Shown here piece after piece: positions 36,491-64,000 of a stretch of 64,000 nucleotides of DNA. The DNA is taken from assembly GCA_020055645.1 (NCBI GenBank), contig JAECZT010000009.1:186001-250000 (forward strand), read 5' to 3'. A model generated the notes under the pieces. The model was not told the DNA's origin, searched no databases, and saw only the letters and a list, made by a program, of their open reading frames with translations. This DNA is from Tomocerus qinae. Its lineage: Eukaryota; Arthropoda; Collembola; Entomobryomorpha; Tomoceridae. Both the position numbers and the translations under genes were made by a program. Each line of letters starts with the position of its first letter. Position 1 is the first letter of the stretch.

Positions 36491-37143
36491 TGCTGATAAA
36501 TATATGCTATTGTTTGTTAAAATGGTAAAAAAGTTTTGAAATAAACCGCCATGGGTGAATACACCATGTGAATGATTAGCACATTGTAAAAAATAAACCG
36601 TAATAAACGCTGTAAATAAGCATCGGTAAAAGAAAATAAAAATTATCTTCGCACAGTACCTACATGATATTTCAATACGTGAACTCCACAAACGTAACTG
36701 TTTCAATGTAGTTTCATTTACGTAGTTTCGTACGTCTCATTTACGAGGATTTAAAAAAAAGATGGTGATTTTATTTTAATACTAGTGATGGATTAATAGC
36801 AATTAATTACTTTAAATGTCAAAGATCACTTCAACGTCATTGTCGAACTTGAAGCTTGTCATTGTCTCGAAAACACACACTGAAAGTTTCATTAGATTAT
36901 CACAATGGCGGAAATGCCGTAAATGCCGTAAAATCCATAATACAAGTCATAGACAGTTTGATGGTAATTTTCAACTAATGGAAGAACAAAAAATATAATT
37001 TCGATCATTTTATAATAAATGATAACGGTTATAAGTTATAAAATGAATTTTCCCTTTTCAAAGCTTTTCAGCCACTATAAGTTGCATATAATGATGTTAA
37101 TACACAATATTGATGTATAAAAGCACTTTTAGCGGGTTATTAC
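36491..37143. other. Non-coding AT-rich stretch
   Basis: About 650 bp without a supported gene or repeat. Frames of 60-87 residues have no motif. Confidence 0.4.
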
Positions 37144-43151: not shown

Positions 43152-43170
43152 TTTAACGATGACACTCAGG

Positions 43171-45600: not shown

Positions 45601-46583
45601 ATTATTTATTTATTTATTATTATTTATTATTTGCGATAAATAGTAAATTCTTAACTGTGATAAATATGGAATTTTTTGATACGATTATTAGCGAATTTAG
45701 ATGTGATGAATGAAATTTTTATTTGAAAAATTGATTAGTCAATTCCCATTTGGTCCACAAGTTGTGGAGATGCAGGAAAAACCCGGTTTAAAGGGAAAAC
45801 CTGCACCTAATTGACTTATTTCATAACTATAAATTACAATAGCTGATAAATTTATAAAATTTTCGCTGGGCATGTCCTCATGGTCAGCAAACAGATTGTC
45901 ATTGTCTTCAACATTGGTTTTAAAGTGAGCGTCGTCTGTGTTAAAGTGAGCGTCGTCTGTGTTACTGGCATGCAAAAGTTATCTGCTAAAGTAACTTTCA
46001 TCATTTCTATCGTTTTAATGCCATCTGTGTGAATGCGGAATTAAACAAATAATGTTTAGAGTAATTTCTTCTATGTGTTGACCAACAAACGTAAAATAAT
46101 TAGATCAAACCTTACTGCACTTTGGCTACCTTACCCACTTCCATTACCTAAAGTGCAACAATTGACTGTTTATCAGGTTAATTTATAACATAAGTAAATT
46201 ACAGTCTTTGTTCGTCACCCTATTCGGGTTGTCACACTGCCAGTAATAGGTATGGTCGTGGGTTGTCTCCTTACTGGCATTAACGAACGCACCTTACATA
46301 ACCAATGTCAATATTACCAATTGTATACCATTTCCAGAGTCCCTTACTTGGATGAACATCATTAGAGGTGAAAATTATTGAGTTATACATTTACCTTTTG
46401 TGCCAGTAAGGATAATGGTTATAATTTTTATTTAAATTAAGTTAAAAATAGGTTGTACGCTTTTCCAATGTACGCAATGTAGTTCCAATGTAGTTATGCA
46501 CGCAATCTAATGAAGGTAAGGCCCCATATCTGCAACACTTTAAAGCAAATCATTACTACGAAAGTTCGGTATTGAAAATAGTA
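45600..46583 (-). other. 3' flank of the Helentron coding region
   Basis: No supported gene. Two 21-bp direct copies of AAAGTGAGCGTCGTCTGTGTT at about 45921-45962 lie in a 78-codon minus frame of doubtful value. A 9-bp stem, TGCCAGTAA (46238-46246) with TTACTGGCA (46271-46279), could belong to the Helentron's right end; TGCCAGTAAG recurs at 46401. The true element end was not located. Confidence 0.4.
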
Positions 46584-46813
46584 TTAAAAATTTAATTGGT
46601 TAAGTAGCAACTGTCCACACAATGTGCTTTTAAGCAAAATCCGGAAAATCTGCTCTCTGAAATTATAAATCGATTGAGAGTTGACATCTGAAACATTTAA
46701 ACCACTTAAAGATTGTTCTAATAATTTTAGAAGGAAACATCCACAATCATACCCATTTAACTGAATAGGGTGGCTGAAAATTAAATTATTTTCCCAACAT
46801 TCTGGTAAAATAC
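46584..46813 (-). pseudogene. Helentron polyprotein, C-terminal Ulp1 part (left of element B)
   Basis: Minus-strand frame continuing the Helentron protein after element B. It reads across the insertion point in the same phase, because element B plus one 4-bp target copy is 12,195 bp, a multiple of three. It contains the peptidase's second half: Gln at 46761-46763, then NGYDCG with Cys at 46743-46745, followed by a helical stretch (FLLKLLEQSLSG), ending at TAA 46584-46586. In C48 peptidases this Gln forms the oxyanion hole and the Cys is the nucleophile. It is separated from its start by the LTR element and so cannot be made as one protein here. Confidence 0.8.
46810..46813. repeat. Target duplication ATAC of element B, left
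   Basis: ATAC directly precedes the 5' LTR and recurs directly after the 3' LTR (59005-59008). Four bp is normal for Ty3 integrases. Confidence 0.8.
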
Positions 46814-47363
46814 TGTCATGAATGCCCGAAATACATATAAAAAGAATTAAGTAAATTGCTAAAATCGGTTGAATAAGTAGGTAGTTACGAAAATGTAATG
46901 TAAATTCATTTGCGTTATTTAGATCAGAGTCAAGATAGGTAGGTGGTGAATTTATTTTATTTAACTCTGTGTATAGGCATAATTAGGTACTTAACGTTGG
47001 TATGTCATGATAATAATTTAAGATGCAAATAACATAATCATTTACCATTGTAAGATACAACGCATAGAAATGAGTTAGACAAAACAAAACTTTTGTAAAT
47101 AAAATGTCTCATGATCTGTATGAGTGATTACGAATGGAATGTAACAAGAACAGAGATGAAGAAATAATAAAGAGAGAGAAATGCTCCAGTTGCGTTTTAT
47201 GGAGAGCCCAGAGAAGAGATCTGCTAATATTTATTCCGACCTAATGCATATACCTAATTTTCACGAGTACTAGTCTTACGAATATTCAAGTTTTATCGGG
47301 TTACGGAGGGACCGATCCTTAATCTTCGCGTAAACAGTCAGGTTTATTACTTGGTTTATTACA
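46814..47363 (+). repeat. 5' LTR of element B
   Basis: Begins TGTCATGAATGCCCG and ends TTGGTTTATTACA, with TG..CA termini. It contains the promoter and poly-A functions of the element (family knowledge). The AATAAA-like run GTAAATAAAATGTCTC near 47095-47110 and AATAATAAAGAGAG near 47163-47176 are candidate polyadenylation signals. Confidence 0.95.
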
Positions 47364-47381
47364 TGGTGTCAGAAGTGGGAT
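47364..47381 (+). promoter_or_regulatory. Primer binding site of element B
   Basis: TGGTGTCAGAAGTGGGAT follows the 5' LTR directly; TGG pairs with the tRNA CCA end. The tRNA species was not identified. Confidence 0.85.
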
Positions 47382-47879
47382 CCCTTGAGGGTCTCTTCGG
47401 TTGAAGGACCCCTTGACGGGGAAAAAGAACTCAAAAGACAAGTAGTGAATTAAAACCTGAATGAAGTGAACTTTCAGACGAGCGAAAATCGGACGATATT
47501 AATAAGTGAAAGTCTCCAATTAATGGACATTGTTGGGGATCACTGGACAGAGGAAGTGTGCATAACAATCTCAGAATGGTAAACAAAATTATCTTCAGAA
47601 ATAAAGTAAGTGAATCCTTTTATTGTCTTCTTGAGAGAACTGAGGTAAAACAAAGTAATCTTGAATCGAAAAATTAATTATTGGAAACGTGCACACTTGG
47701 TGAATACAATTAATTTAAAGTGGCCACGCCCACCCCAAGATCCACGCCGATTTTTTTGAAAATTCGGTACTTAGAAAATTTTCGAGTAAAAAGTGAAGTA
47801 GGGGATAAGTGAGACATTATCTACTCCACGATAATTCCATCATTTCTCCTATCTTTTAATAAAAAGACAGTGGCGACCG

Positions 47880-48165
47880 ATTAAAGACAAACAATATTTA
47901 TAAGAAATTTTAGAAAAAGTGAATACCTAAGTATTAGTGAAGTTACCCGTCCACGACGGGCGAACAAAAATACAAATAAATTATTTTCTAACAGATTAAC
48001 AGAAAGTTATTAAAAAGTGAGTACCTATATACTAGTGACGTTACCCGTCCTAGTGACGGGCGGAACAAAATTTAAATAAATCAATAATTAAACAATTAAA
48101 CCAATATTTAAAGAGTTTAGTGTCTATTGACTAGTACCATTACCCGTCCGACGACGGGAGAACTC
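47880..48165 (+). repeat. Three ~98-bp leader repeats, each with a CCCGTC/GACGGG hairpin
   Basis: Hairpins CCCGTC-CAC-GACGGG (47946-47960), CCCGTC-CTAGT-GACGGG (48044-48060) and CCCGTC-CGAC-GACGGG (48143-48158) sit 98-99 bp apart, each after a TAGTGA/TAGTAC-type word plus TTA and followed by GAAC and AAATAAA-like sequence. The 6-bp stems are identical while the loops vary in length and bases and the flanks have diverged. The stretch 47382-47880 upstream is non-coding leader. Confidence 0.8.
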
Positions 48166-48245
48166 GATTTTAAAACTTTATTTAAAAAATGCTGAGAATA
48201 AATATAAAATCAATTAATAAGGAATAGACAATAATTGTTCAAAGT

Positions 48246-48671
48246 ATGAGTACGTTAAAAATTGTAAAATTAGACACTAATGCGGTGATCCCTACACGAG
48301 CAACTGAAAATTCAGTAGGTTATGACCTATATGCTACTGAGGAAGTCACCTTAAAAGCTAGTGAGACAAAAACTGTCAGGACTGGCATAGCTGCCTCTCC
48401 CCCAATAGGAACCTACATTAGGATTGCCCCCCGATCAGGCATTTCTTTATAAAAACATTTAGTAGTGGGAGCGGGAGTATGTGACCCAGACTATACTGGT
48501 GAACTTAAAGTTGTGTTCCACAACGTAGGACAAGAAATTATTATTATCTCAATTGGGCAGAAAATTGCTTAGCTAGTTTTAGAGTGCTACAAAACTCCAA
48601 AGGTAGAAATAGTGGATCAACTTAAAAACACTAGCCGTGGATCCCAAGGATTTGGATCCACTGGAAACTAA
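48246..48671 (+). pseudogene. dut: Retrotransposon-borne dUTPase, two in-frame stops
   Basis: 141 codons, the normal length of a trimeric dUTPase (dUTP to dUMP and pyrophosphate, keeping uracil out of new cDNA). All five family motifs are in order in one frame: ENSVGYDLYA (1), APRSGIS (2), GVCDPDYTGELKVV (3), GQKIA..LVLE (4) and SRGSQGFGSTG (5). Stops are TAA at 48450-48452, just after motif 2, and TAG at 48570-48572 inside motif 4. There is no frameshift. It lies between leader and gag with its own ATG, not fused to gag or pol, unlike retroviral dUTPases that sit in pol. The family-wide copies may be intact; this one should make only the first 68 residues. Confidence 0.9.
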
Positions 48672-48732
48672 TAACTTTCGATTTTGATTTTGGTGAAAAC
48701 AGTAAACACAGTAGTGCACGTAATTTACAAAA

Positions 48733-48912
48733 ATGGATTTGCCACCTGTTTGGCCATTTTGGTTATTACTGTTTTGTATGGTGAGTGTCCAGATTTTACT
48801 GGAACGTGGCCCAAATTTAGGACTCATATACTTGCAATTGTTTATGTTTGTTGTGAGTGCTATAGCAATGGTCATTACTACAATCTTGGTTATTATGAGA
48901 GCGTTAGAGTAA
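48733..48912 (+). CDS. 59-residue two-helix membrane microprotein
   Basis: Short intact frame between dUTPase and gag, ATG 48733 to TAA 48910-48912. It starts MDLPPVWPFWLLLFCMVSVQ; a short polar turn (LERGPN) separates this from a second long hydrophobic stretch (IYLQLFMFVVSAIAMVIT, then ILVIM). It ends RALE. Two membrane-spanning helices in a hairpin are predicted from the composition. Intactness next to a doubly stopped dUTPase is notable. No family is recognised; a viroporin-like or anchor role is only a guess. A longer overlapping frame (48684-48938) in another phase is less plausible. Confidence 0.5.
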   Translation: MDLPPVWPFWLLLFCMVSVQILLERGPNLGLIYLQLFMFVVSAIAMVITTILVIMRALE

Positions 48913-49024
48913 ACAATAGACTACAATCAACTACTTAAAGATACAAAATAGATGTTAAGTGATACAAGTGAAGTGTGTTTTAAGTTTTAAGACTTGAGTT
49001 CCAATTAAGACAAAAGACTTTAAT

Positions 49025-49890
49025 ATGTCAACACCAGCTAATGAAGGTGGTGGCCAGTCATCGAAGAAAGCTGCCCCAATATCGAGCAGTAAAGTCACGA
49101 AAACCAGGGGTAGGCCTAGAGGTCGTCCAACTGGGAAAAGCTTGGTCCCTCCCCAGGTAGATGAAGCTACGCATTCAGAACAGGAGGAGGAACGAGAAGA
49201 AAACCAACCAGGTACCATGGATGATACAGCATCGACCATGGCAAGCAGTAGACGGACGTCGCTGAGAAGCGCCGGCTTCTACTTCCGAAGAGACAGGGTG
49301 AGCGCTGGAGACGAGAGGAATACACGTGCTTCAGCTGAAAGAGGAGCAAGGGGAACAGATGACCAAGCAGCACAATCCACCAGTGCTGGTACAAAAGGGA
49401 ACCCCCCTAGAAATCCATTTGTTGAGGATGATACAGACGAAGAGCCCCAGAGGTCAAATGCCTCTAGCCCCATTTCAGAGAAAAGTCAAGAAGCACCGCC
49501 GCACGTTCTCGACATGGAAACGTTAGAGGCGTTGCGAAAGCAGTATCAGAAAGACACCGAAGAGTTAAAAAGAAAACAGGCTGAAGTTCAGGCCAATTTT
49601 GAGGTCGTCCTCGCTTTAAGAGACGAAATGGTAGCTGTCAGAGACCAGTTGTAGGCTGACAATGCAAAAAGTGTCATCGTTAGAAGGGCGGCAAGGGAAC
49701 CACCGCCAACTTCTACTCCAACCGGACCTCCTGACCGTGAAACAATCCGTGCCCAGCTGTTGAGACTCTTCGATACAGTCCCGGAGGTGGGCACTGGTAA
49801 CACCGGGAGACCATCTACGGCTACTGGTAACCCGGCAAGGTCAATCCCCTCTGACGGTAGGCAAAGTCGTATTGTCCTACCATATCCTTC
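49025..49890 (+). pseudogene. gag: Element B gag, N-terminal part with AT-hook-like and coiled-coil segments
   Basis: Starts at ATG 49025. Residues 25-40 read TKTRGRPRGRPTGK, a double RGRP core like an AT-hook, which in known proteins binds the minor groove of AT-rich DNA. An acidic, Ser/Arg-rich stretch follows, then a heptad-like helix (LEALRKQYQKDTEELKRKQA). A TAG at 49652-49654 interrupts the frame; it stays open beyond it to about 49885, where the reading must shift to the frame of the next segment. Together with 49872-51008 it makes one gag. Confidence 0.7.
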
Positions 49891-51008
49891 CTCGGACACC
49901 AGCTAATATTGACGAAGAAATTGGTCTACTAGCACAACAACCAGCGCCTACATTTGGAGTGAACATATTACAATCATTCCATACAATGTTCGTTGGGGAC
50001 AGCAGAGAGCCTGGAATGGCGAAAGAATTCTTACGAAAATACGAATCCATGACGTCAGCCATGACCCAAGCTGAGAAGAAGAAACATTTTGCATCAGTTC
50101 TGGGCGGAACAGCATCCATGTGGCTAGAATTGTTCATCGCAAAAATGAATGAAGAAGAGTTAGAAGATGATGGACATGGAAATATGGTTAACGGCTTCGC
50201 GAAAGTGACATGGCCAAAACTAAAAAAGGAATTCTTATTGGAGTTTTATAAAAATAATGCTCAGGCATTTATCGTGATGCAGATGCGACCGGACGAGTCG
50301 GCCTCAACATTCTTTATACGAATTACAAGCAGCCATTTAGAAGCAGGAAGCCCTCTAAGCGAAGAGATGCTGATACAACAAATCATAGAAAAACTTAACG
50401 ATTTCTATTATGAAAAAGTGGTCAACAAAAGTTTCTCGAGTCTCGACAGTTTAAAGAGGAAGTTAAACGAAATAGACGCAGGTAGACAAGCAATTAACCG
50501 AAAAAGAGCTCAAAATAGTGGAACCAAGAGGATTGCTACGATGAAATCCACGGAAGAGCCGCCGATGAAGATAGCAGCTCTTATCAAGGAATTCGGGAAA
50601 CAACTTGATGACAGGTTCTCAAAGATGCAGAAAGCGTGGACTACAAATAAAAGCAATCCACCCAGCAAGGGACAGTCACAAAATCAGACCAACTCCCAAC
50701 AGAAGTCCTATCCTCCACGCCAAGGACAAAGGAACTACTATCCCCAAAACCAAAGAGATTATTATGGTAACAGCTCTCGAGGTGGAAGAGGAGGTAGACA
50801 AAGATTCCAGAATTATGGGAATGACCCACGCGCATGCTATAAGTGTAATAATGTCGGCCATATTGCGCGTGATTGCCACCTCGACGACAATCAAGCGCCC
50901 CCTTGTAGAGGAAGAGGCGGTTACAGAGGTAGATCAAATCGGGGAGGTAGAGACAGTAACAAGCCCAAAGTTCCCCCAAAGACGGAGGGAAACCAGCAAT
51001 CGCAATGA
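49872..51008 (+). CDS. gag: Element B gag core and nucleocapsid
   Basis: 378-codon open frame; true homology starts near 49885. It contains the capsid region (FHTMFVGDSREPGMAKEFLR, WPKLKKEFLLEFYKN, SLDSLKRKLNEIDAGR), a Gln/Asn/Tyr/Arg-Gly-rich linker and one CCHC knuckle CYKCNNVGHIARDC, then an RGG-rich tail. Packages genomic RNA and forms the particle. It ends at TGA 51006-51008, which overlaps the pol-frame ATG at 51005 (ATGA). Confidence 0.85.
   Translation: MSYHILPRTPANIDEEIGLLAQQPAPTFGVNILQSFHTMFVGDSREPGMAKEFLRKYESMTSAMTQAEKKKHFASVLGGTASMWLELFIAKMNEEELEDDGHGNMVNGFAKVTWPKLKKEFLLEFYKNNAQAFIVMQMRPDESASTFFIRITSSHLEAGSPLSEEMLIQQIIEKLNDFYYEKVVNKSFSSLDSLKRKLNEIDAGRQAINRKRAQNSGTKRIATMKSTEEPPMKIAALIKEFGKQLDDRFSKMQKAWTTNKSNPPSKGQSQNQTNSQQKSYPPRQGQRNYYPQNQRDYYGNSSRGGRGGRQRFQNYGNDPRACYKCNNVGHIARDCHLDDNQAPPCRGRGGYRGRSNRGGRDSNKPKVPPKTEGNQQSQ
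50987..50993 (+). promoter_or_regulatory. -1 ribosomal frameshift heptamer GGGAAAC, gag/pol of element B
   Basis: Gag reads GAG GGA AAC CAG CAA TCG CAA TGA. G GGA AAC is an X XXY YYZ slippery heptamer in phase, 12 nt before the gag stop. The shifted frame (GGG AAA CCA GCA ATC GCA ATG AAC) is open into the protease. Termination-reinitiation at the ATGA overlap is an alternative. Confidence 0.7.
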
Positions 51009-51301
51009 ACCAAGGGGAAGGCCATTGTGATAAGAAGAGTATCCCCGCAGAGGATAATGAAATCACTGAACACATTTTAGCTTTAGGAGGTAGTGGTAAA
51101 CAATTATATTGTCCCATCATATTTGATGGAATAACGGTACAATGCATGATTGATACGGGAGCATCTACCAGTGTTATTCATAGTGGTATGCTTAGAGACC
51201 GGAGTGACATTGTGGATACTAATATTCGCATCCGTAGTGCCACTGAGAGTCCACTAGTAGTAAAAGGAAAGAAATTATTAACTAATAAAATAGAAATATA
51301 G
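51005..51301 (+). pseudogene. pol: Element B pol: aspartic protease
   Basis: Retropepsin domain: FDGITVQCMIDTGASTSVIH with the catalytic Asp-Thr-Gly near 51152-51160, then VVKGKKLLTNKIEI. The frame ends in TAG at 51299-51301; the rest of the domain (IPEGLIIGMDNLEKHGG) resumes in another frame just before 51361, so a small indel lies near 51295-51310. It releases the gag and pol products in an intact element. Confidence 0.8.
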
Positions 51302-51360
51302 AATTTTCTGAATATCTTAATGTAGTTGAAAATATCCCTGAAGGGTTAATCATAATTGGT

Positions 51361-52140
51361 ATGGATAATTTGGAGAAGCATGGAGGTTGGATTAGCTGTC
51401 GTAAACGAAGGGTTTGGTTCGAAGGTGTAGAGTTAGAAGGAAGTCCACATCCATTGCAGATAGATAATGTTATTGCGATGCTTCAGCTGATCACTGAAAA
51501 GTCCTCCCAAACTGTAAATAAGGACAATGCGTCGTCCTCTGTAAAAAGGAACATTGCTTGTAAAATATATGCTGTGAATGAGAGAGAGAACGAAAATGAC
51601 TTGAGACATTTTAAAGAGAATGACTTTGACATAAATTACGGACAAGTGAATTATCACTTGAGAGAAAAGAATGATAAGAATGTTGAGAGTAAGACCCCAG
51701 TGTTTAACACGGACGGTGTGGCACGGAAGGGCAGCAACGAAAAGAATGATGAGAATGTTGAGAGTAAGACCCCAGTGTTTAACACGGACGGTGTGGCACG
51801 GAAGGGCAGCAACGAAAAGAATGATGAGAATGTTGAGAGTAAGACCCCAGTGTTTAACACGGACGGTGTGGCACGGAAGGGCAGCAACGGAAAGAATGAT
51901 AAGAATGTTGAGAGTAAGACCCCAGTGTTCTACACGGACGGTGTTACACGGAAGGGCAGCAACGAGAGAATTGATGAGATGATTGATAAGAGACCCCGGG
52001 GCGGTTCAGGCGATGGTGAGGCAAATGTATCGCAGGCTGGTCTGGCCAACCAATCTGTTTGTGCACAGTCTCTACCGGAGCAGGAACCGGAGAATATTAT
52101 GGAAATGAATGACAATTTTGACTATGACTGTTGTATATAA
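51361..52140 (+). pseudogene. pol: Element B pol: protease end and repetitive linker
   Basis: Begins with the end of the protease (MDNLEKHGGWISC), then a Cys-poor, Asn/Glu-rich linker of about 230 residues leading to RT. It includes four near-identical 25-residue repeats. It ends in TAA 52138-52140; the RT segment continues in the same frame after it. Linker function unknown; such spacers are rare between PR and RT of Ty3 elements. Confidence 0.7.
51665..51964 (+). repeat. 75-bp in-frame tandem repeat, four copies
   Basis: Units start at 51665, 51740, 51815 and 51890 and encode KNDENVESKTPVFNTDGVAR plus KGSNE. The first three differ by one or two bases, the fourth by several. The period is a multiple of three, so the pol frame is kept. 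Confidence 0.9.
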
Positions 52141-52170
52141 CGTTGTTTAGAGACATGTCATAAAGATGAT

Positions 52171-53427
52171 TTGAATGAAGCAGAGACATGCTGCTTTGGA
52201 ATGGAATGTCCTTCTGCTAATGAAGAGACTGATTTTTGGAAAAGAGAGTATGAAAGAGAAGTTGCGTGCTTTGAAAATGGTGAATGTTATGGATATGAAA
52301 AAGAAAATGATAAAATTATTAATAGTATTTTAGAAGAAAAGCTTGACCATTATAATAAGTATGGGATAGTGAAGATAAAATATGACGTAGTGTTGTCACC
52401 ACATTCTTTTTCTTGCATCCCAATTAAATTTGAAAACATATCGAGATTGAGTTTAGATAGTTTGTTTCGACCATGGGAAGAAGTGGAAATAAATTTTGGA
52501 ATATTTATTATGCCACATCTTATTAGTTCGGAAACGGTAGCAATCATGATCTTCAACTTGGGTGATAACCCAACTAAGTTAAATAGAAACTTGAGAATCG
52601 GTTATGCAGAGCCGATGGAGAGGTCTGAAATGACTAGTGAAGAATTTGAAACTTTGTATTCACTAGAGGAAGGAGCATTTGACATTAACGCATTCGATAT
52701 TAACCCAAATGCACCTGAGAAAGATAGAGAAGAAACTAGAAAGATCATAATAGAGTATCAAGACAGATTTGCATTTACGAACTCACAATTGGGTTGTACC
52801 TCTACCATTACGCATAGCATTGACACAGGAGATCATCCCCCTGTCAGAGAGAAACTTAGGCCAAGACATTCTCAGGCTGAAAGAGAAATTATTAGGAAAC
52901 AGGTAGCAGAAATGCTTGCTTGTGGTGTTATTGAAAGGGCTTACAGCCCGTATTGTGCAAATGTTGTCTTAGCGCCAAAACCAGATGGTAGCTTAAGATT
53001 CTGTATCGATTATAGAAAACTAAAAAGTGTAACAACTTTTCATAGCTATCCAATTCCCCGCATCGATGAAGTCATTGAATCAATGGCAGGAAGTGATTCA
53101 TTTAGCCCCCTCGATGCGATATCCGGTTTTTGGCAGGTCATGATGAACAAGAAAGATGGCTCACATCTCAAAACATGTTTCATTACGGAGGATGGTAGTT
53201 TCGTTTGGACACGAATGCCATTTGGTTTGAAGAATAGTCCAATGACCTTTGCCTTGTTAGTTGATTTAATGTTTGCAGACATGCGACATTTAGTAGCATA
53301 CTACATTGACGATTTAACTTGTCACGGAAAAGATCATAAACAAAACAATGAGCGGCTGATCGTAGTTCTCAACCGATTAAGAGAACATAACGTGAAGCTT
53401 AAGGCTCAAAAGTGTAAATTTTTATAA
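52171..53427 (+). pseudogene. pol: Element B pol: reverse transcriptase
   Basis: True coding continues from the linker across the TAA at 52138. A Cys/Glu-rich region precedes RT. RT blocks: IDTGDHPPVREKLRP, VVLAPKPDGSLRFCIDYRKL, FSPLDAISGFWQV (first Asp), MPFGLKNSPMTF and YYIDDLTCHGK with the catalytic Tyr-Ile-Asp-Asp at 53302-53313. Both Asp residues are intact, in contrast to element A. The frame ends in TAA 53425-53427 and resumes in phase, so a single nonsense change separates RT from RNase H. Confidence 0.9.
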
Positions 53428-53439
53428 GAGGGAATTGAA

Positions 53440-54951
53440 ATGTTAGGTTTTGTAGTCAACGGACAGGGCGTTAAGCCTAATCCAAAAAGAGTAGAAGGCA
53501 TTAAAAACATGCCTATCCCTAATACTTTAAAGAAGTTACGATCATTCCTTGGAATGATAAACTTTTATAGAAAATTTGTCCCAAAATTGGCTTACGTAGC
53601 AAAACCTTTGTATGAACTGCTTAAGAAATCGGACAGCACATTACATTGGGCTTCCGAACAACAACGTAGCTTTGAAGAATTAAAAGATGCTTTAGTAAAA
53701 GCGACTTTATTAGAACACTTTAGGCCGGACCGTGCTATCGAGATCCATACCGACGCATGTGATTATGCTGTCGCGGGAGTATTGGTCCAGGTAGAACCCT
53801 TTGTCACAGATAAAGGTAGAACCAAGAGGAGAGAGATCTCAATCCACCATATCAGTAGAACTCTTGTAGGAAATGAGTTAAAGTGGTCGATACCAGAGAA
53901 AGAAGCGTTAGCTTTAATGTTCTCTCTGGATTGTTTCAGACCCTATGTAGCTCTGAAACCCTTCATTATTCGAACCGATCACATAGCTTTGACTTATTTA
54001 CAGAACTTAAGAGATCCCGTTAAAACAAGGATTGGAAGATGGGCTCTCAAGCTCCAAGAGTTAACATGTCAAATAGTACATCGTGCTGGAAAGCATAATG
54101 TAATTCCTGATGCATTGAGTAGAAATCCGTTTGAGAAACCGTTATCGGCTTCTCACGTGACAGACTTAATTACCTTTTGTCTGATCGATGAGGAGAGAAA
54201 TGCTTATGTAAATAAGATTCATGCCCTATCGGAGAAATTGGAAAAAGGAGAATCAGTATCTGAGGAAGAGTGCGTTTTGAACAAGGAAGATGCAATATTA
54301 TCCGCATCTGAAATCGGAATTAATTTCAGTCAGCTGCAGTTCTCTGACGAGTACTGTAGGGAAATAATTAATAATCTAGACTGTAATCCGAACTTTGTTT
54401 TGGATAAAGGTTTATTATGGTATGTAAGTAAAGGCATTAGTAAAATCGTCGTGCCCGTTGCATTGAGAGGATTAGTTCTCGAACTTTACCATGCGTCCAA
54501 ATTTGCAGGTCATTTTGGCCATCAAAAAACGCTAGCTAGGCTGAGCCAAAGATTCTTTTGGCCAGGCATGACAACTCAGGCCAAAGAATATATCGACAAG
54601 TGTCTAAAATGTAGACTACATAAAGTGCCATTAAGAAAGCGGCATGGTCTACTAAAACCCATAGATCCCACATTAGGTGGAGAAACTATGCAACCGGGAA
54701 GTTTCTGGGCCATAGATATTTTAGGACCTTACCCAGAAACAACAAATAATATGAAATACGTCATTGTGAGTACATGTATGATAACTAGATACGTAGTCTG
54801 TGGCACGTTGCAAGCTACATCAGCTACGGAAGTTGCAGAATTTTTAATCGATAGAATTATACAGTACTTCCACATACACTTCCACTTCCACATACTATAC
54901 AGTACTATACGCATTCCGAATATTATTAACGGACAATGCAACATGTTTTAG
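53440..54951 (+). pseudogene. pol: Element B pol: RT thumb, RNase H and integrase N-terminal half
   Basis: Starts MLGFVVNGQGVKPNPKRVEG (end of RT), then RNase H (EIHTDACDYAVAGVLVQ, SIPEKEALALMFSLD, IRTDHIALTYL, NVIPDALSRNPF). Integrase: HHCC finger (YHASKFAGHFGHQKT, DKCLKCRLHK) and the first catalytic Asp in FWAIDILGPYPETT. Near 54865-54905 the sequence repeats CCACATACACTTCCACTTCC-like words and the frame is lost, before the second catalytic Asp. Confidence 0.88.
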
Positions 54952-54961
54952 ATCCAAATTA

Positions 54962-55477
54962 ATGACTTGCTTAGCAGAAACTTTTCAGTTTCAGCATAAA
55001 TTCTGTCATAGTTATGTTCATAACATTATAGGTAGTGTAGAAAGAATGAATAAAACGTTAGCAGAAATGATAGGAAAGCAAATTGCAGAGTACGGAGAAT
55101 TTAGAGACTGGATAAAGATCCTTCCTAATAGCGTTATGGCATATAACTCTGCCATACATAGTTCACTTTTGGAAACTCCATCATTTTTAATGTTTGGCAG
55201 AGATCTGGAATTTCCTGTCGACGTTATGATTAACCTCCCTACCCGGTCATTGGCCGCGGACACATTCCTGGCTAGATATAAGAAAGGAATGGAGATCGCT
55301 AGAGATAATTTAGTTATCTCACAGCGACGGGCGAAGAAATACTTTGACAGGAATAGGAAAGAGCGTGTTTTGAGAGTAGGAGACGAGGTACTATACGAGG
55401 TACCTACTAGGAAAAAGGGAGAGCCAGACAAACTGCAAATAAATTACGAGGACCATACGCAATTACTCACAAACTAG
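54962..55477 (+). pseudogene. pol: Element B pol: integrase C-terminal half
   Basis: The second catalytic Asp lies in a TDNATCF-like stretch at about 54928-54948, just upstream of the first in-frame ATG. The catalytic Glu is in IGSVERMNKTLAEMIG, followed by MAYNSAIHSSLLETPSFLMF and FDRNRKERVLRVGDEVLY (GPY/F-type region). The frame ends at 55475-55477 and the tail continues in another frame at 55483. Confidence 0.85.
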
Positions 55478-55482
55478 GAGAT

Positions 55483-55845
55483 TTGACATTTGTGATAAGA
55501 TTAATTGGTGACGAAAAAGCCAAAAGTATTATAACAAGTGCTAGACTATTACATTATTACAAAGACGGTGTTGTAGTTGAAAACCCAACAGAGAAAGAGA
55601 CCCAGCCAACATTATCGGATAAAAATGTAAGTAAAACTTCTGTACATAAAGATAATGTTGATATTCCGGATATAGATACTTCTCAAAAAGGTACGGTGAC
55701 AACAGTACCTGAACAGGTAGATGTTCGTAGGTCAGCGAGAATTAGGGAAAGGAAACTAAAGCAAGTTTGTGTCATCCAGGTTCCAGAATCGATGGATGAC
55801 GGTTATGGTTATCTGTGGGCTATTGTTCACAACTCCCAGCCATAG
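55483..55845 (+). pseudogene. pol: Element B pol: C-terminal tail
   Basis: Continues the integrase C-terminus (FVIRLIGDEKAKSIITSARL, LHYYKDGVV), then an acidic/Thr-rich tail and RRSARIRERKLKQVC. The last basic segment could bind DNA or serve as a nuclear signal (inference). Ends at TAG 55843-55845. No chromodomain is recognisable. Confidence 0.65.
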
Positions 55846-55861
55846 TTGGTAGCCAGATTTC

Positions 55862-56388
55862 ATGTGTTTTAACGAGACTTTAGAAATATTATTTAATAGA
55901 TCCATAGATATAGTAAAAAGCAAAACGCTTGTTAAAATTGTACAAGTACCTATGGTACAGTGGACAGGTATCGTTATATTAGGAGGTTGGACAGGCACAA
56001 TTGGAGCCATTTTTGGTTATCATTTGGATTTAGAGCAGGTTTGGAATATAATAGAATTATTAGTAGAACACTGGCAATTTTAGGGACACTAGAAGCATTA
56101 GAAAAGGTAAATGCAGGTTTGTTTGACCTTAATCATGAGATAAGTGTTCCTGCAACTGTTAATGTCGGTCCAACAAATATTCAATTAAATACTTCTGTAC
56201 AAATTGGTCCGAAAGAAATATTTCCAAAAGGAAAATGTAAAAAATGGTTCTATGGTCCATTGCCAATCATCATTTTGATTCTTGTTAAACTTATGCTTAT
56301 TCTCATTTTGGTAATTTGTTGCAAATGTAGAAGAAAGGATAAGAGTGTTAATAATTTGACTACAGAGATGGTTACTCTGGCAATTTAA
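55862..56388 (+). pseudogene. Membrane-protein ORF at the env position of element B
   Basis: Two overlapping frames that read as one protein of about 170 residues with a frame change near 56030. Part 1 (from 55862) holds a hydrophobic Gly-rich segment (QWTGIVILGGWTGTIGAIFG). Part 2 (to 56388) ends in a strong transmembrane stretch (PLPIIILILVKLMLILILVI) followed by CCKCRRKDK and a short cytoplasmic-type tail. A C-terminal anchor with a Cys/basic border is what retroviral Env proteins show, but at under 200 residues this is far too short for an Env and no fusion peptide or cleavage site is claimed. It may be an Env remnant or a separate accessory protein. Confidence 0.5.
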
Positions 56389-57610
56389 TAAGAATATAGC
56401 ACTAGGGTTGATGGTTAAATAAATAGGTATGTGAAATCACAAAACATAACAGGTAGGAAGTCATGTTTTGTATCACACTTATTGAATAATAAATATAAAG
56501 TTTTTGGTCATCTGATATGGTAGTTATTTCACACAATTGTGCCATGTATGCATTTTGATTTATTTCGTTTTCTTATTAAGCTAAGCAAACATTTACGTCT
56601 TTACATCATTACGTCTGCACCGTTCATTTACAATTTCTGTTAGAAATCAGGCAGAGTAATAAGGCAGGAGTGCAGTTATTCATCTTGGTGTAATGACATT
56701 TTTGGTACGTATCTCTTTTATTCTCAACATTTAGAAACAACAAGTTTGGAACAATTCGTTTCATCAAAATGTGTTTTGTCCATGCTCTGTGGATTTGCCG
56801 AATCACTTGGCACTCGGTAGTTGAAACCCCATGGGGGGTACTATACGCAAAAGATGCGTGCGGTTCACGGACCTTCTTTTGTCCACCCAGATCGCTAGAC
56901 TGGGCAGGTGACCGGTAAAGACGTTATGTAAGCCGTGGGCCCTGATGGAACAGTTCACTATTTGGGTGCCAAGGGAGGAGGTTTATTCAACAGAAAACTC
57001 TAAAAGTTCGAAAATTCTGAAAACAACATACTACCGTGTAAATATTGGTACTTAATAATAAGTTACCGAAAATATAGGAGTGTAAGGGTGTTGGGTATTG
57101 CACCTAAAAAAAGAAATAATGGAAAGCGGGTAACATATTAGCATGGTATTGAATAATCATATAGATCAAGCAGGTAATGTACTAATCACCCGGGTGAATC
57201 AATTAACAACGCATTGTGAGTAAAGGTAAACAAGATGAGAAAAACAATAAATATCAATACCATGGGTCCTTGGGAACCCATGGAGTTGTCCTGACCATGT
57301 TCCGATCTCTTTATTCAACCCCTCGAAAAGATTCCAGATTGGAAGTGAGTAACCAAGCTAGTTTCAGGAAGTATGGAATAGAATAAAGCCTTCGGAACGT
57401 GGACTCGTTACCCGGTATGTGACGAGCACATCCCAGTCCCCCGTGCAGGCAACTAAATGTTAAGGGAGGTATTTTTGTAAATAACGGGACAAGAGAGTTA
57501 TAAGTGCACTAAGAACAAATCTATAACGAAAAAAGAAGTAAATGATGAAAAGGAAACGGGAAACAAACAGATAATTATGTCATAAGAACATTACTAATAT
57601 TTATTTTTTT
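56389..57610 (+). other. Non-coding 3' region of element B, structured
   Basis: About 1.2 kb, less AT-rich than the surroundings and without an open frame over 60 codons on the plus strand. A perfect 8-bp stem CCATGGGT-CCTTGGGA-ACCCATGG lies at 57260-57283, and ACCCCATGGGGGGT at 56827-56840 is near-palindromic. It could be decayed coding sequence or a structured RNA element. Confidence 0.45.
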
Positions 57611-57922
57611 TTGAATTTCCTGAAACGAGTAAATATCGAAGTCATGGAACCTCCTGAGGGAAAATCCTATTTGGGTGACGAACCTTGGTACCTTTTCCTG
57701 ATGACTGTCACAGAGTTCTATGACCACGACCGTTCTTGTGAAAAGAAAGTTCAATTTCTGGATACCATACAGGGCGGCACCCACGGAGCCTTTCCTCCAG
57801 GAAGTAGAAGCGAACACGACATTAATGGCAACCTGAAAAGGGCACATTTCTATTTTCATTTCGTGTTGGGTGCCTTGTTGCATGGGATGGATCCGTTTGC
57901 TAGCGGACCGTTCATGTGGTGA
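57611..57922 (+). CDS. 103-residue ORF near the 3' end of element B, unknown
   Basis: Open frame with mixed composition (SYLGDEPWYLFLMTVTEFYD, TIQGGTHGAFPPGSRSEHD, FHFVLGALLHGMDPF). It ends in TGA 57920-57922, about 540 bp before the 3' LTR. No domain recognised. The 5' boundary is uncertain because a T-run precedes it. Codon content looks less random than neighbouring frames, but chance cannot be excluded. The stretch 57923-58448 has no gene. Confidence 0.35.
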   Translation: MNFLKRVNIEVMEPPEGKSYLGDEPWYLFLMTVTEFYDHDRSCEKKVQFLDTIQGGTHGAFPPGSRSEHDINGNLKRAHFYFHFVLGALLHGMDPFASGPFMW

Positions 57923-58448
57923 GGTACCTCCGAGATGCTAATGGAAATAGTGTTTGGAAGTGCCAAAATATAGATATAGACATATTATCGAACAAAGTAT
58001 TGTGTATAAAATAGATTGAAAATCTTGTGTCTTTAATTTATATAATTAGCCGGCAGAAAGGTCATAATTTAGAGAGATACATCGGAAAATCTGTATAGAT
58101 TATTGGTGTCAGAGTGTTAGAATGTAAATATCTGTTATCAACTTAGTTTAATGAAATGAGGAATAGATGTCCGTCTCGGGTAAAGGTTTTTTCAAATTTT
58201 GTCTTTTCCACCTTGATTTGAGTTTTTACACCTTACCCCCAGGTAATGGCAGTAGGCGGACTAGGATAGAAAAGGTGAACTCAATAAAGTAGGTACAAGA
58301 TAATTTTCGTTCTGGGCACAAAGGTACATCTTTGTTAATTTATATAACAACACAAGTTTGTAAATAAAGACTTCCATTCGTAAGACGATTAGTTTCGGGC
58401 ATAACAAAAAATTTGAAAATTCATTCCAACAGAGTTAGTCAGAATTTT

Positions 58449-58460
58449 AAGTAGGGAGAG
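58449..58460 (+). promoter_or_regulatory. Polypurine tract of element B
   Basis: The purine-rich run AAGTAGGGAGAG ends directly at the TG of the 3' LTR, where plus-strand priming is expected. Confidence 0.75.
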
Positions 58461-59004
58461 TGTCATTAATGCCCGAAATACATATAAAAAGAATTAAGTA
58501 AATTGCTAAAATCGGTTGAATAAGTAGGTAGTTACGAAAATGTAATGTAAATTCATTTGCGTTATTTAGATCAGAGTCAAGATAGGTAGGTGGTGAATTT
58601 ATTTTATTTAACTCTGTGTATAAGCATAATTAGGTACTTAACGCTGGTATGTCATGATAATAATTTAAGATGCAAATAACATAATCATTTACCATTGTAA
58701 GATACAACGCATGAGTTAGACAAAACAAAACTTTTGTAAATAAAATGTCTCATGATCTGTATGAGTGATTACGAATGGAATGTAACAAGAACAGAGATGA
58801 AGAAATAATAAAGAGAGAGAAATGCTCCAGTTGCGTTTTATGGAGAGCCCAGAGAAGAGATCTGCTAATATTTATTCCGACCTAATGCATATACCTAATT
58901 TTCACGAGTACTAGTCTTACGAATATTCAAGTTTTATCGGGTTACGGAGGGACCGATCCTTAATCTTCGCGTAAACAGTCAGGTTTATTACTTGGTTTAT
59001 TACA
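58461..59004 (+). repeat. 3' LTR of element B
   Basis: TGTCATTAATGCCCG to TTGGTTTATTACA. Compared with the 5' LTR: T for G at base 7, GTATAAGC for GTATAGGC, ACGCTGG for ACGTTGG, and a 6-bp deletion at GCATGAGTTAG. Read on the minus strand it adds about 28 foreign codons to the Helentron frame before a stop at 58917-58919. Confidence 0.95.
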
Positions 59005-61874
59005 ATACCAAGAACGGAATGCAAAACAATTTTTAATTGGGACAAATGTTCATCAATATTAACATGACCGGGTAAAGACTCCATTACTGTTAATATAAAA
59101 GGGTCAAAATTGATTTTAATAAGGAACCAATGGTCAATGTGATTTGAATGTAGGTATATAGTGGAATTTCGTAATTTATCTATATTTCCTATTAGATAAT
59201 CAGGAAACATTTCTTCCACAGCTTGATAACACCCGTTTTGACCGCGGTAAAAGAAATAACTATCTAATATATAGTGGTTGGCAGTGTTTATGGAAGTCAA
59301 TAAGTACTTGGCATAGGCATTGATCACTAAATCGTCTAGCCACTGCCCTTCATGCAAAGTAGCTATAGATTTTCTACTGCCTACATAGTTCCCAAATTTA
59401 AAAACAATTGCGTCATACTCAACTTCTATTGGCTGTGGAATAATTTTAGTAGATTTGCTGATACTGCAGTCAGTCATCTCGATGGCATCAACCTTGACAT
59501 CAACCAAATCATTGACTGATAGTTTCTTTAGGTCATCAATCATAAGCATACTATTATCAATCACCCAGGACATCATTATAGGCTTATGATGACTGAAATA
59601 GCTTTCCGCGTACCAGTAATTCAATTCTGAGATATTACTAAAGCAAATATCAATTTGGGAATTACTATTTGTCGAATATTGGCCGATTTTACACTTCAAA
59701 TTTAGATTAAAAGCGCTCATTAACTTCACAAATTCGGAACAACAGGATTTTGTGAGGTCAATGTTAAAATCCCCAACTACTATCAACATTTGCCCAATAA
59801 AATATTTTTGTAGTATATCATTTAAGAAGGATAGGAATTCGGTGACAACAACCTTTGGCGATTTATACCCATAAAGGATATCAACTTTTTCAATAGTCAT
59901 CAAACCAAACTCAACCAACCCTCCTATAAACGATTTACTGAACATTTCTGTTTTTCTAATGGAGTGGGAAGATAAGTTATTTTTAAGCGCATAAAGCCCA
60001 TGTGGCTTCCTTACTGAACTACAGCAGTCCATTTTATTTATAAGGGAATAGTTGGGCATTGAGAATTTATCAGTATCAAGGGTCCAAGATTCACAAAAAA
60101 GCAAAGCATCCAAGTTTTGATATTGGTCGTCGACTTTGATATCATCAAAGTGACTGTTCAAACTTTGGATGTTGTGAAACAACACTGTAATCGTTGACTT
60201 TGACAATTTATCGGGTAAAGGATAGTTAAAAGCTACTCTTTTTTCCCTCAACCTATACATTTCCAATTCAACTATATCAAAACCTGAAGCAGGCATTGGA
60301 GCAGTAAATTGTCCTTCCAAATACAGTCCAGATAATTTAGTTGCTCTACTACAGGCGACATACAAAGCAGCTCTTGTTAATCCTTTTCGTAAATAGACTG
60401 CTACAGATTCATACGTTGCTCCTTGAGATTTGTGCATAGTAATAGCTTCAGCAGGTACCAAGGGAAATTGACTTCTTACAACCTGAATGTCCCGTCCTGG
60501 CCAACTCTTGATGATTTTATTTGTCGTCTTTACTGGAGTCCAGTTCCTGTCCAAAACATTGGGTATTTTGTTGTTTGCGGCTCTGCATTCTTGACCAACT
60601 TCCCTTGAATCAAATTCAATTAAAGCTATCATAGGAATTTTTTGATCATTTGTTAAATTTCCATATATGATTTGTTTTAAAATTCCTGAAGCTCCATTAA
60701 CCAATCCATCCCGCGTGTTAACATTTATTGTCATCATATATTTGGCATTAATCTTCAACAGCAATTCATAGGGCAATCCTTGGCTCTCACGAACATTTAA
60801 ATTTCGTGCACTTTCCAGAATGGCTTCTTTATCGTTTTGACCTTTTCCTTGGCATTTGTCTCTTGCAGTTGAGATTATTCCTTCAGTCACCATTTTCTCC
60901 AATACGTTTTGATTGTAAATTATGACACTTTCATTATCATAGTAAAGATGCACAGCTTCAAGAGGGATTGTTTTGGGATCTTTGATTTCTCTATCCTTGA
61001 ATAGCACAGTATCTTCTTCAAGCATTTTTCCAATCGACATCCTGTTCAAAGCGTTTGCAAACCGTAGGTCATCTTTTTGACGCATAACTTCTGAGAGTTC
61101 AAAAAGTTTGAATGGCTCCCAAAACAAATTCCCAGATATAGCCTGTAGATCTTTTAATTTATCAAATATATATTTTCCACCAACTGGCTTAAATTGATGA
61201 AAGTCGCCAACTAATAAAATACTTATGCCTCCAAATAATTTGTTATTTGTAAATATTTGTTTAAGTCTATTGTGTATTTGAATAAACATATTCAAACTTA
61301 CCATTGATACTTCATCAATGATTACTAATTTAAGGTCTCTTAATTTACAAAAAAGAGTATTGCAAAAATCATGCGTTAACTTTGGTATTTGTTTTGTAAA
61401 TTGACTTAATGGCAAACAGAATGTTTCATGTAAAGTACTTCCTTTTATATTGTACGCCGCTTTACCTGTCGGTGCGCACAATAAAATTTTTACCGTATCC
61501 GGGGTAGCTCCAGGTAGGGAATTGAGATATCGCAAAGAGGATTGTACTATTGCTTTAATCAAATGACTTTTACCAGTACCGGCACCACCTGTCACAAACT
61601 CATAAGAAGGATTTTCGTTGACCTTTAAACAGTTAAGCCTGTGGTACATGAACCTTCTTTGTTCTTTGTTCAAGGATCTCATTAAAACAACAAAGTCTTC
61701 ATTTGGTAAAACATTTGGAATATTAAATACCTTTGTCCTGTCTTTCTCATCAGTAAAATCACCATTATTATTTACCATGTTACCGCAAGGTATGTCTAGG
61801 ATTACACTTTCCATTTGGCCTTCCGTATGGTAGTCGTCTTCGCTGCTGTCGTCTTCAATATCATCCAAATCCAA
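58917..61874 (-). pseudogene. Helentron: Pif1-type helicase, EEP endonuclease and first half of a Ulp1-like peptidase
   Basis: 985-codon frame. Helicase, about residues 60-540: GGAGTGKSHL (Walker A, about 61564-61592), LVIIDEVSMV (Walker B), GDFHQFKPV, MHKSQGATY and YVACSRATKL. EEP domain, about 558-770: VLFHNIQSLNSH, LLFCESW, IVVGDFNIDL, SQIDICFSN and SHHKP where family members have SDH, so the catalytic Asp is replaced by His. C-terminal domain from about 835: QWLDDLVINAYAKYL, a DSYFFYRG box, then HIDHWFLIKI with His at 59130-59132 and MESL with Glu at 59079-59081, where C48 peptidases have Asp. The last 28 codons are LTR sequence; the native continuation is at 46584-46813. The ATG at 61874 is only a frame opening: native coding comes from the Rep segment by a shift near 61870. 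Confidence 0.88.
59005..59008. repeat. Target duplication ATAC of element B, right
   Basis: Second copy of ATAC (partner 46810-46813). Confidence 0.8.
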
Positions 61875-62812
61875 ACTTCAATATTTGCTTGCTTTTCGTA
61901 TTCGCTTCTCTTACTTTCAATCGTTTGCAAATTAAGGGTATACAGACTCTTTATGTCAACTGAAATCAACTCTTTCTTTTCATCCCTCCAAGGTAGATAT
62001 AACATTAATTGTTCCCGATAGTAATTTTCTTCATCTTGATATTTATTGTATCTTCTATATCTTATCACCTTCGGCTTCTTCCTTTTTGTGACATAGCCAG
62101 AATTATCTTGCAGTTTCAGAACTGTCGCCGTGTCCTCCTCATCTTCTGATTGTTCATTGTCATCTTCGTTATTATTCTCAAAATTCGATTCCTTACGTAC
62201 AATAGCTCGTTTGCTTTTCGAAAACATGTAATATGCCGCAAAATCAGCCAGACATAAATACTCCAAATTGGTAGGTCTTTGACAGTAATGTTCCAACAAA
62301 CCAGGAATCAGTACATCTGTAGAATCAGGACTCAACTTCTCCAATTCTTCCATTGATTTAGCGAATCTCACTCTCTGTTCTCTTTCACCAGTTGAAATGA
62401 ATGTTGTACTTCTATTGCACATGCTGAGAGGAATACATAGAATAGTATATGCAGCCTCTTGTGCCGACACCTCCGTGGAATTCAAAAAGACGCTGGCCAC
62501 CTTTCGCAGCTTCTGTTGAATGGTAGCATTACCGTACTCCACATCATCCACCACAGCTTTGAGTAATTTCGACATCCCGCGACATGATTTAGAAATATAA
62601 GACACACAGTATTTAGCACAAGCATAAGGGTCCAAAATAAACTGAATATCCATATTAGACCTCCATAAAGAAGCCATAAAGAAGAGTATTTTTAAATTGT
62701 AAGCGTTTTCGAAGACGGAATCTACATTCCGCTTTAAAAACACTGTTGGTCTTTTAATGCACATTAAATAAGTCTTTTCGTCTAATTTACAGAGGCGAAA
62801 GAAAGTCATCAT
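61870..62812 (-). pseudogene. Helentron Rep, second part (tyrosine region)
   Basis: Minus-strand frame of about 310 codons between the HUH part and the helicase. Near 62590-62630 it has DPYACAKYCVSYISK, the two-tyrosine Y2 region that cleaves and joins single-stranded DNA in rolling-circle transposition, followed by AAYTILCIPLSMCNRST. It then runs through an acidic stretch (NNNEDDNEQSEDEEDTA) to the helicase. Single-base frame changes near 62800 and 61870 separate it from its neighbours; the open frame extends to 61802 out of phase. Confidence 0.85.
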
Positions 62813-63659
62813 ATGAAATATTAATATTTTGTTTGTCTTTGTGCATTTTTGTCAATAACTCCTTTACAGTAATAGCAGTTTTAGTCAGATTTTGTCTTAT
62901 ATTTTTAGGAACATTGTCAGGTAAAGGCAGAAAAATATTAGTTTCCTTCAAAGGAAAATAAGGCATACCGAACCTACAAATTACTCCACTTTTTGTTTTC
63001 CTTTCACAAGTTGAGGTATGCTTGTGGCCTTGATGGATGACGTCGTCGACATCTGCTTGACACTGAATAAACTGATCAATAAAAGAAATACAATCTCCGT
63101 TAATTTCAGTGCCACCCATATCATTAAATTTCGGAGACCCTTCCAACCAGAATAGTCCGTGCATATGAGGTGAACCTCTATGCTGAAATTCTATTCGGTA
63201 GAAGAAGTCCTTTACCAAGTACCCAGAAAAAGCGCCACCAGGAGATAATAAAATGTACTTCTTCCATTGTCTCAAACGCCAATCAAAATATCTTGCACAA
63301 GTTATAGGATCTCTTCGGATTAAGTCCGCCTTTCTTCGGTATGGTAGGGCAGCAGCTTTCTCTTCGGTAATAACCAGTTGGTCCAAAACTAGACTGAGTA
63401 TCACTATCAGTTCAGGCCAATGCGTTTCTGCTGCAGACAAAGTTATGAAAAAAGTTGGAATACCCAATTGACGAATCATTGCCATTAAATTATTTTGTTT
63501 CTGTTCCCAGTATGCCGGAGATGATCTGATTTGCTTCAGCATTCGATATCCATCATCATGTTGTACCAAGTTGTTAACAAATTCACTCGACTTCATGTCA
63601 GCAGCTGTAATAGTACCGCACTTCTTTTTCCGAAGACAAATAGAAATTAGGTTATACAC
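62787..63659 (-). pseudogene. Helentron Rep, HUH nuclease part
   Basis: Helitron_like_N region: DDGYRMLKQIRSSPAYWEQK, FFITLSAAETHWPEL, YFDWRLRQWKKY, then the HUH motif in EFQHRGSPHMHGLFWLEG (His-Arg-Gly-Ser-Pro-His-Met-His at 63159-63182) and a Cys/His stretch (HKHTSTCERKTKSGVICRFG). The two His of HxH coordinate the metal for strand cleavage. The native protein continues upstream in phase; the ATG 63659 is only the first after an in-frame stop. Confidence 0.88.
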
Positions 63660-64000
63660 TTAATGAATTTGTAATACTTTAAAAGATTATAATAATTTTA
63701 CTGGTATACAACCCCTCCGATCAGACCTCCTAGCTTCTGATTTGGCTATCTCTCCATAGCTTGGTTTTATCTTGAATTTCCTCTTCCTTCCGCAATAAAT
63801 AGTTGGAAATGCTAGTTCCTCAGCATTCATGTCATTGATCAAGGACAAAGGTCTTTTATTTTCTCCTGGTGCGTATCTTTTTGCTTGATTTCCATTTAAT
63901 TCTTCAATATTGAATAAAAGAGTCTCGTTTCCTTCGGATTTATTTCTTCTTCTTCATTATTGTCATCTTTTTCTACATTTCCACCCTCTTTATTTGGCTT
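63660..64000 (-). pseudogene. Helentron Rep, N-terminal part, running off the edge
   Basis: In the frame of the HUH part the sequence is open from about 63930 to two TAA stops (63687-63689 and 63660-63662). It reads YAPGENKRPLSLINDMNAEE, LAFPTIYCGRKRKFKI and EIAKSEARRSDRR, the conserved N-terminal block of Helitron Rep proteins. Right of about 63930 an acidic stretch (EKDDNNEEEEINPKE) continues in another frame, indicating one more shift. The element's 5' end is outside the window. Confidence 0.8.

Follow-up and report, generated by a model that had tools for sequence, protein, structure and literature searches.

We describe a Helentron of the collembolan Tomocerus qinae in which the Rep, Pif1 helicase and EEP nuclease domains are followed in the same protein by a C-terminal peptidase. 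By profile and sequence similarity this last domain is almost certainly a C48 peptidase of the Ulp1/SENP type. The element was noticed in a stretch of 64,000 nucleotides of contig JAECZT010000009.1 (assembly GCA_020055645.1, positions 186,001 to 250,000), here called the window (C9:186001-250000). There it lies on the minus strand in pieces, comprising the Rep, the Pif1 helicase, a weakly matching EEP and the first half of the peptidase. The genome in which we looked for further copies consists of 334 Mb in 115 contigs. The copies are labelled A to F (close copies), S1 to S3 (sister copies) and W (window). Based on this comparison we lean towards a Helentron with a single protein of about 2,180 residues, arranged Rep-Pif1-EEP-C48, whose peptidase would strip ubiquitin-like tags while the element is copied.

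The features of the window copy and its surroundings, numbered from the first letter of the window, are as follows.

63153..63554, minus strand: Rep, Helitron_like_N match with the HUH-type word HRGSPHMH (Pfam; word also in S1, F and A)
61802..62851, minus strand: second broken frame of the Rep region with a YxxxYxxK word, YCVSYISK (list of open reading frames; word also in S1, F and A)
61029..61673, minus strand: Pif1 helicase match PF05970, helicase motifs continuing to about 60320 (Pfam)
59616..59876, minus strand: EEP nuclease, Pfam-matched part, weak (Pfam; stronger in relatives)
59005..59345, minus strand: C48 domain, first half, from QWLDD to HIDHW and MESL; interrupted by the retroelement (Pfam, match to a solved chain, paralogues)
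59005..59008, no strand: target duplication ATAC, right copy (flank comparison)
46814..59004, plus strand: retroelement with long terminal repeats (LTRs) at 46814-47363 and 58461-59004, inserted in the Helentron (repeats, flanks)
46810..46813, no strand: target duplication ATAC, left copy (flank comparison)
46584..46809, minus strand: C48 domain, second half (Gln, NGYDCG), with its stop codon (Pfam, frame)
43968..45643, no strand: 172-bp tandem repeats downstream of the Helentron frame, common to the close copies (repeat comparison)
36428..36500, minus strand: 3' end of the Helentron in degenerate form (TCAGG...TTGCTGTTGGTTTT), directly adjoined by the 5' end of a second element (terminus comparison)

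A preliminary description of the window, made from its letters and translated frames, had proposed a minus-strand Rep and Pif1 helicase. Both gave clear Pfam matches: Helitron_like_N with an E value of 8.7e-27 in the open reading frame (ORF) 63659-62787 and PIF1 with E 1.8e-26 in the ORF 61877-58917. The latter frame spans the helicase, an EEP-like part and the first half of the C48 domain. The EEP nuclease named in the same description is weak as far as the window's own match is concerned (PF14529, E 0.0021, under its cut-off). It gained support from alignment, as the window frame aligns through the EEP part with relatives, including ones that pass the PF14529 cut-off. The HUH-type word and the two-tyrosine word were present in all three proteins examined (S1, F and A). 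A Rep of the HUH type with two tyrosines, a helicase of superfamily 1 (SF1/Pif1) and, by weak matches, an EEP domain after the helicase were thus found, and together with the termini given below they bear out the proposed name Helentron. The Rep-helicase coding region of the window is split over three overlapping frames (63659-62787, 62851-61802 and 61877-58917), so that this copy is broken there. To the left the Helentron extends past 46584, and its 3' end, in degenerate form, lies near 36428; no 5' end was found. A 245-codon ORF on the minus strand (42441-43178), situated in the stretch from the Helentron ORF to that 3' end, has no Pfam match over cut-off.

The peptidase frame is cut by an LTR element of 12,191 bp with TGT...ACA ends, flanked on both sides by ATAC. 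Aligned to each other, its two LTRs (550 and 544 bp) show 3 substitutions and 6 gap columns, so that the insertion is recent. To the left of the element the Helentron frame resumes in phase at 46809, continues through NGYDCG and stops at 46584. Insert and target site duplication together amount to 12,195 bp, a number divisible by three. When the flanks were joined by script with one ATAC kept, a single frame of 271 codons including the terminal stop resulted, and the other two frames contained 28 and 30 stops. The cut by the LTR element, the continuation in phase with its stop and the length had all been described there, as had the words QWLDDLVINAY, HIDHW and MESL, and computation agreed in each case. 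That this interruption is more than a chance arrangement follows from the close copies, in all six of which the site is intact and holds a single GTAT. The copy in the window is a relic, considering the frame breaks in the Rep-helicase region, a changed catalytic acid and the young LTR insertion. Within an ORF of the LTR element a 75-bp tandem repeat is located at 51589-52038.

A search of the genome with the first half of the C48 domain gave 13 matches, made up of the window, six close copies, three sister copies, one remnant and a different ORF named L021. The close copies, at 91-98%, are located at C1:89.5 Mb (A), C1:104.5 Mb (B), C3:47.7 Mb (C), C2:15.1 Mb (D), C3:51.4 Mb (E) and C2:45.2 Mb (F, in two pieces). 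None of them carries the LTR at the insertion site. The sister copies, at 43-44%, are found at C7:866 kb (S1), C7:909 kb (S2) and C5:13.4 Mb (S3). The remnant (60%) lies at C1:79.88 Mb, and the match to L021 is at 26%. The C48 domain is open in four of the six close copies (A, C, D and E) and in all three sister copies. Copy B has an in-frame TGA after its MDSL motif, and its changed His is the one before DHW; the frame of copy F breaks near HIDH.

The complete arrangement is seen best in S1, which forms one frame of 2,197 codons (L035:427-7020, minus strand). Its domains follow each other in the order DUF6570 (residues 325-452), Helitron_like_N (619-755), PIF1 (1248-1457, E 2.8e-28), PF14529 (1847-1945, E 8.3e-4, under cut-off) and Peptidase_C48 (2022-2174, E 3.9e-8). 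The helicases of the close and the sister family are 78% identical, and the fusion of Helentron and C48 occurs at separate places on contigs C1, C2, C3, C5 and C7. An artefact of the window alone is ruled out by the nine other copies in the genome. The uninterrupted copy that the preliminary description had suggested looking for therefore exists, both as six close copies without LTR and as the single frame of S1. It had also named three observations that would speak against the fusion, none of which was made. One was paralogues ending before the His box; four of the six close and all three sister copies contain the whole series His, Asp, Gln and Cys. Another was empty-site copies without the DCG segment, which is present except in B and F, two copies broken by stops. 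The third was a placement of the domain in another fold by profile searches, whereas those given below place it with C48/SENP.

The termini could be determined in seven of the nine other copies (A to F and S3). Here the element starts after a T with AGCTCGCCTGA, and at its 3' end the stem-loop CAGGCGAGCTTCTGTTACGGCTTGC leads into a run of T; both this run and the T preceding the element were seen in all seven. The start is the reverse complement of the left part of the 3' stem-loop. The seven copies bounded in this way range in length from 10,735 to 14,720 bp. For S1 and S2 both element ends were looked for and not found. For Helentrons, Thomas et al. 2014 (PMC4067079) described subterminal repeats that are palindromic, a stem-loop at the 3' end, insertion at TT and runs of T. 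In copy B (C1:104.5 Mb) the 3' end of the Helentron is directly followed, head to tail, by a short element that has the same ends and is 1,084 bp long there; such an element is likewise found in the window to the left of 36428.

In the window the first half of the C48 domain alone is insignificant against Peptidase_C48 (E 2.1, profile positions 1-129) and matches the SENP1 chain with E 0.0011. The second half matches Peptidase_C48 with E 2.3e-4 (profile 162-206; 21.5 bits, cut-off 20.7), and its best solved chain, a Ulp1-like one, has E 1.3. Both halves are collinear on the one profile. Copy A covers the profile from 1 to 206 with E 1.7e-9 and reaches 38.3 bits, S1 33.8 bits, both above the same cut-off. 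Among solved chains copy A matches SENP2 (E 9.7e-9) and Ulp1 (1.4e-6), as well as SENP5 and SENP1, and a profile of six copies matches SENP5 with E 2.4e-10. Searches with A, S1 and the six-copy profile thus place the domain with C48/SENP, in line with the Ulp1-like identity first suggested. After the EEP domain of S1 and A only C48 was found by Pfam at E 0.1, a search in which no separate VTD model was run.

For the active site we aligned copies A, C, D, S1, S2 and S3; B and F were excluded as broken and E as it resembles D. QWLDD, HW, MDSLPGH and YDCGCFLL with a preceding Gln were invariant in all six, so that His, Asp, Gln and Cys follow in this order. We take these four residues to be the C48 active site, which agrees with the alignment to SENP2. 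In SENPs the Trp of WLDD and the Trp of HW line the tunnel for Gly-Gly. As these residues are conserved, including both Trp, the domain is probably an active isopeptidase for ubiquitin-like proteins. The window reads MESL, with Glu in place of the presumed catalytic Asp. All eight other copies that reach the motif (A to E and S1 to S3) read MDSL, which makes the window the only one of nine with this change; F stops earlier.

Selection was compared among A, C, D and S1 to S3, leaving out B, E, F and the window copy. Between the two families the nonsynonymous divergence (dN) of the C48 domain was 0.34-0.36 and the proportion of synonymous differences (pS) 0.74-0.79, at which synonymous divergence (dS) is saturated; the ratio pN/pS was about 0.35-0.38. 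The EEP domain was close to this with a dN of 0.27-0.28 (A, C and D against S1), the linker between EEP and C48 one of 0.85-0.89 over 32 codons. Within the families dN/dS of the C48 domain was 0.24 (A-D), 0.28 (C-D) and 0.29, 0.36 and 0.21 for the sister pairs. The domain is constrained, more so than its linker, and the substitutions fit purifying selection.

To look beyond this genome, the helicase frame was used as query in a protein search; of 7,995 candidates scored, 1,143 matched at E 1e-10. The following figures refer to the best 120. Twenty-eight of these had at least 60 residues after the match and were scanned with Pfam at E 0.01. PF14529 was found in 18 of them and PF03372 in 12. The peptidases matched were OTU (8/28), UCH/USP (3/28) and C48 (1/28). 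The OTU domain was C-terminal in all eight, following the EEP in seven and the helicase in P0078; its match was over cut-off in six and under it in P0013 and P0036. UCH/USP followed the EEP in the Helentron-like proteins P0020 and P0044; in P0062 it is a fragment at the end which overlaps the helicase. P0020 and P0062 are named as proteins of the boll weevil (Anthonomus grandis). The accessible text of PMC9741609 names OTU and VTD as peptidases of Helitrons, and not USP.

The single C48 match belongs to the Helitron-like metagenome protein P0034, which is arranged Rep-helicase-C48 (C48 E 7.7e-16) and has no EEP match. A second metagenome protein, P0032, has the helicase and then the start of a C48 domain, with 37.5% over 56 residues to S1. 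A quick helicase tree of 115 sequences, supported by SH-like approximate likelihood ratio tests (SH-aLRT) only, was used solely for the clade around our copies. It placed W, F, A and S1 with P0027, P0031 and P0032 in one clade (SH-aLRT 99) and P0034 elsewhere, joined by a long branch. For P0031 a BLAST match reached query residue 851, but its tail is unlike C48 and it was not counted. C48 in this class thus extends beyond a single genome, and there may have been more than one acquisition. In viral contigs scanned with three queries no relative was found.

Some results weigh against the reading preferred here. The partial C48 of P0032 was not seen by Pfam, and the same-clade proteins P0027 and P0031 have no recognisable C48 before these sequences end. 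A protein search with the EEP and the first half of C48 gave no match at E 0.01 among 3,021 candidates, and one with the C48 domain of copy A none among 96. These empty searches imply a lineage which is narrow or poorly sampled. Furthermore, dN/dS of the C48 domain was 0.83 for the pair A-C (3.5 synonymous and 11.5 nonsynonymous differences), a value that alone would fit relaxed constraint.

As to its function, the Rep-helicase-EEP-C48 protein would be bound at its own DNA while the peptidase acts. The C-terminal domain may then strip off SUMO or a different ubiquitin-like tag, carried either by the transposition protein or by host factors of silencing or repair close by, whereupon copying could proceed. 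C48 would thereby fill the place that OTU peptidases hold in related Helentrons. For SUMO rather than another tag as the target we regard the balance as about even. That the domain is instead a deubiquitinase or NEDD8 peptidase with the role that OTU and VTD have, for example shielding transposition proteins from degradation, is a rather unlikely alternative. It draws on the OTU and USP domains of the tailed relatives given above and on zebrafish Helentron VTDs, whose reactivity extends to ubiquitin and, in two of three, to NEDD8 but not to SUMO probes (PMC9741609). However, the nearest solved relatives of the present domain are the SUMO peptidases SENP1, 2 and 5 and Ulp1. In the C48 family specificity cannot be read from sequence similarity alone. 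Small-RNA-guided silencing in animals involves SUMO (PMC8131101, PMC8131105), and SUMO-dependent silencing of transposons is one candidate target.

The remaining explanations ascribe less to the peptidase. It would be quite unlikely to serve as a processing enzyme for the long Rep-helicase-EEP protein, in the way adenovirus-type peptidases cut viral precursors, even though it stands at the end of a very long multidomain protein and Thomas et al. 2014 (PMC4067079) considered such a role for OTU peptidases. In S1, F and A, scanned for Gly-Gly only and not for adenain-type sites, neither the stretch from helicase to EEP nor that from EEP to C48 contains such a pair, and self-cleavage at Gly-Gly is therefore not suggested. 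The pairs that do occur are confined to the N-terminal part and to the Rep, helicase and EEP domains or their immediate vicinity. Helitrons often capture pieces of genes (PMC6431247), and a captured passenger without function would also suit the A-C ratio. We consider this very improbable, as the C48 domain is open with its active-site residues kept in two families whose helicases have diverged to the extent stated, and pN/pS between the families and dN/dS in the five other pairs are low (about 0.35-0.38 and 0.21-0.36, respectively). That a separate C48 gene came to lie next to a Helentron by chance would be conceivable from nothing but the interrupted window copy. With several separate fused copies on five contigs and the single frame of S1, it was rejected as having practically no probability. 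A Helentron protein with a tag-removing C48 peptidase is the reading we retain.

The source of the domain was sought in the genome itself, which holds 61 Peptidase_C48 matches, eight of them inside these Helentrons. One of the eight, S2, has no Rep match within 8 kb. At C1:82.98 Mb there is a likely host SENP gene, whose match to the Helentron domain is poor (E 0.032); an origin from it is not favoured on account of this weak match. L021 (G000:C5:15119439-15122855) has a 595-codon ORF (minus strand, 2928-1141) with a terminal Peptidase_C48 (E 4e-12), which matches the Helentron domain at 27% with E 1e-13. The part before C48 is possibly transposase-like; Pfam named no transposase in it. As L021 is closer than the likely SENP gene, the C48 domain may more likely have been acquired from another transposon than from a host gene. 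Two further frames with a similar C48 match, 594 and 584 codons long, are found at C1:26801536 and C1:128829501. A cluster of six Peptidase_C48 matches in open frames of 297-336 codons is present on a small contig (G000:C21:15632-83477).

Peptidases of other families are already known in this transposon class. OTU in Helitrons and Helentrons and VTD in Helentrons are in print (PMC4067079, PMC9741609, PMC6431247). The preliminary description named OTU peptidases for Helitrons; OTU is not the only peptidase known in Helentrons, from which VTD deubiquitinases were reported in 2022 (PMC9741609). Its statement that no Helentron with a Ulp1-type domain was known stands so far: we found no Helentron or Helitron of this kind in the literature accessible to us, a search outside which Repbase, preprints and most subscription journals lay. 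The accessible text of PMC2836005 gives Ulp1 for Ginger1 and Mutator-like elements and names only OTU for Helitrons.

OTU and VTD Helentrons share with the present element the Rep-Pif1-EEP protein, palindromic subterminal repeats, the 3' stem-loop, T-T insertion and a ubiquitin-related cysteine peptidase (PMC4067079, PMC9741609). They differ in the peptidase, which here is C48/Ulp1 and thus of another family. The order of the catalytic residues is not the same in C48/Ulp1 as in OTU and VTD. SENP1, 2 and 5 and yeast Ulp1 match over most of the catalytic domain but are cellular enzymes. In Polinton/Maverick elements the Ulp1-like peptidase is a gene beside capsid, polymerase and packaging genes and is not known to be fused to a Rep-helicase. 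These elements and viruses have in common with the Helentron that a Ulp1-like cysteine peptidase is found in a mobile element (PMC10175614). Ginger1 and Mutator-like elements likewise carry Ulp1 on a transposition protein, the C-terminus of Ginger1 being OTU or Ulp1 (PMC2836005); their proteins are DDE transposases in contrast to the rolling-circle Rep-helicase found here.

Ulp1 would be the third unrelated peptidase of the ubiquitin system in one transposon class, beside OTU and VTD, and perhaps the fourth when USP is included. Because different enzymes were repeatedly recruited to the same protein end, rolling-circle transposition or the escape from silencing is suggested to need the removal of ubiquitin-like tags. 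A broader proposal, in which OTU, VTD, USP and Ulp1 were recruited repeatedly to the Helentron C-terminus and the Ulp1 form, as a deSUMOylase, locally reverses SUMO-dependent small-RNA silencing of the element, is rather unlikely on present grounds. Given the role of SUMO in small-RNA silencing, a domain resembling SUMO peptidases on a transposon offers a directly testable idea of counter-silencing. Our data suggest a Helentron that edits the protein-tagging system of its host while copying itself.

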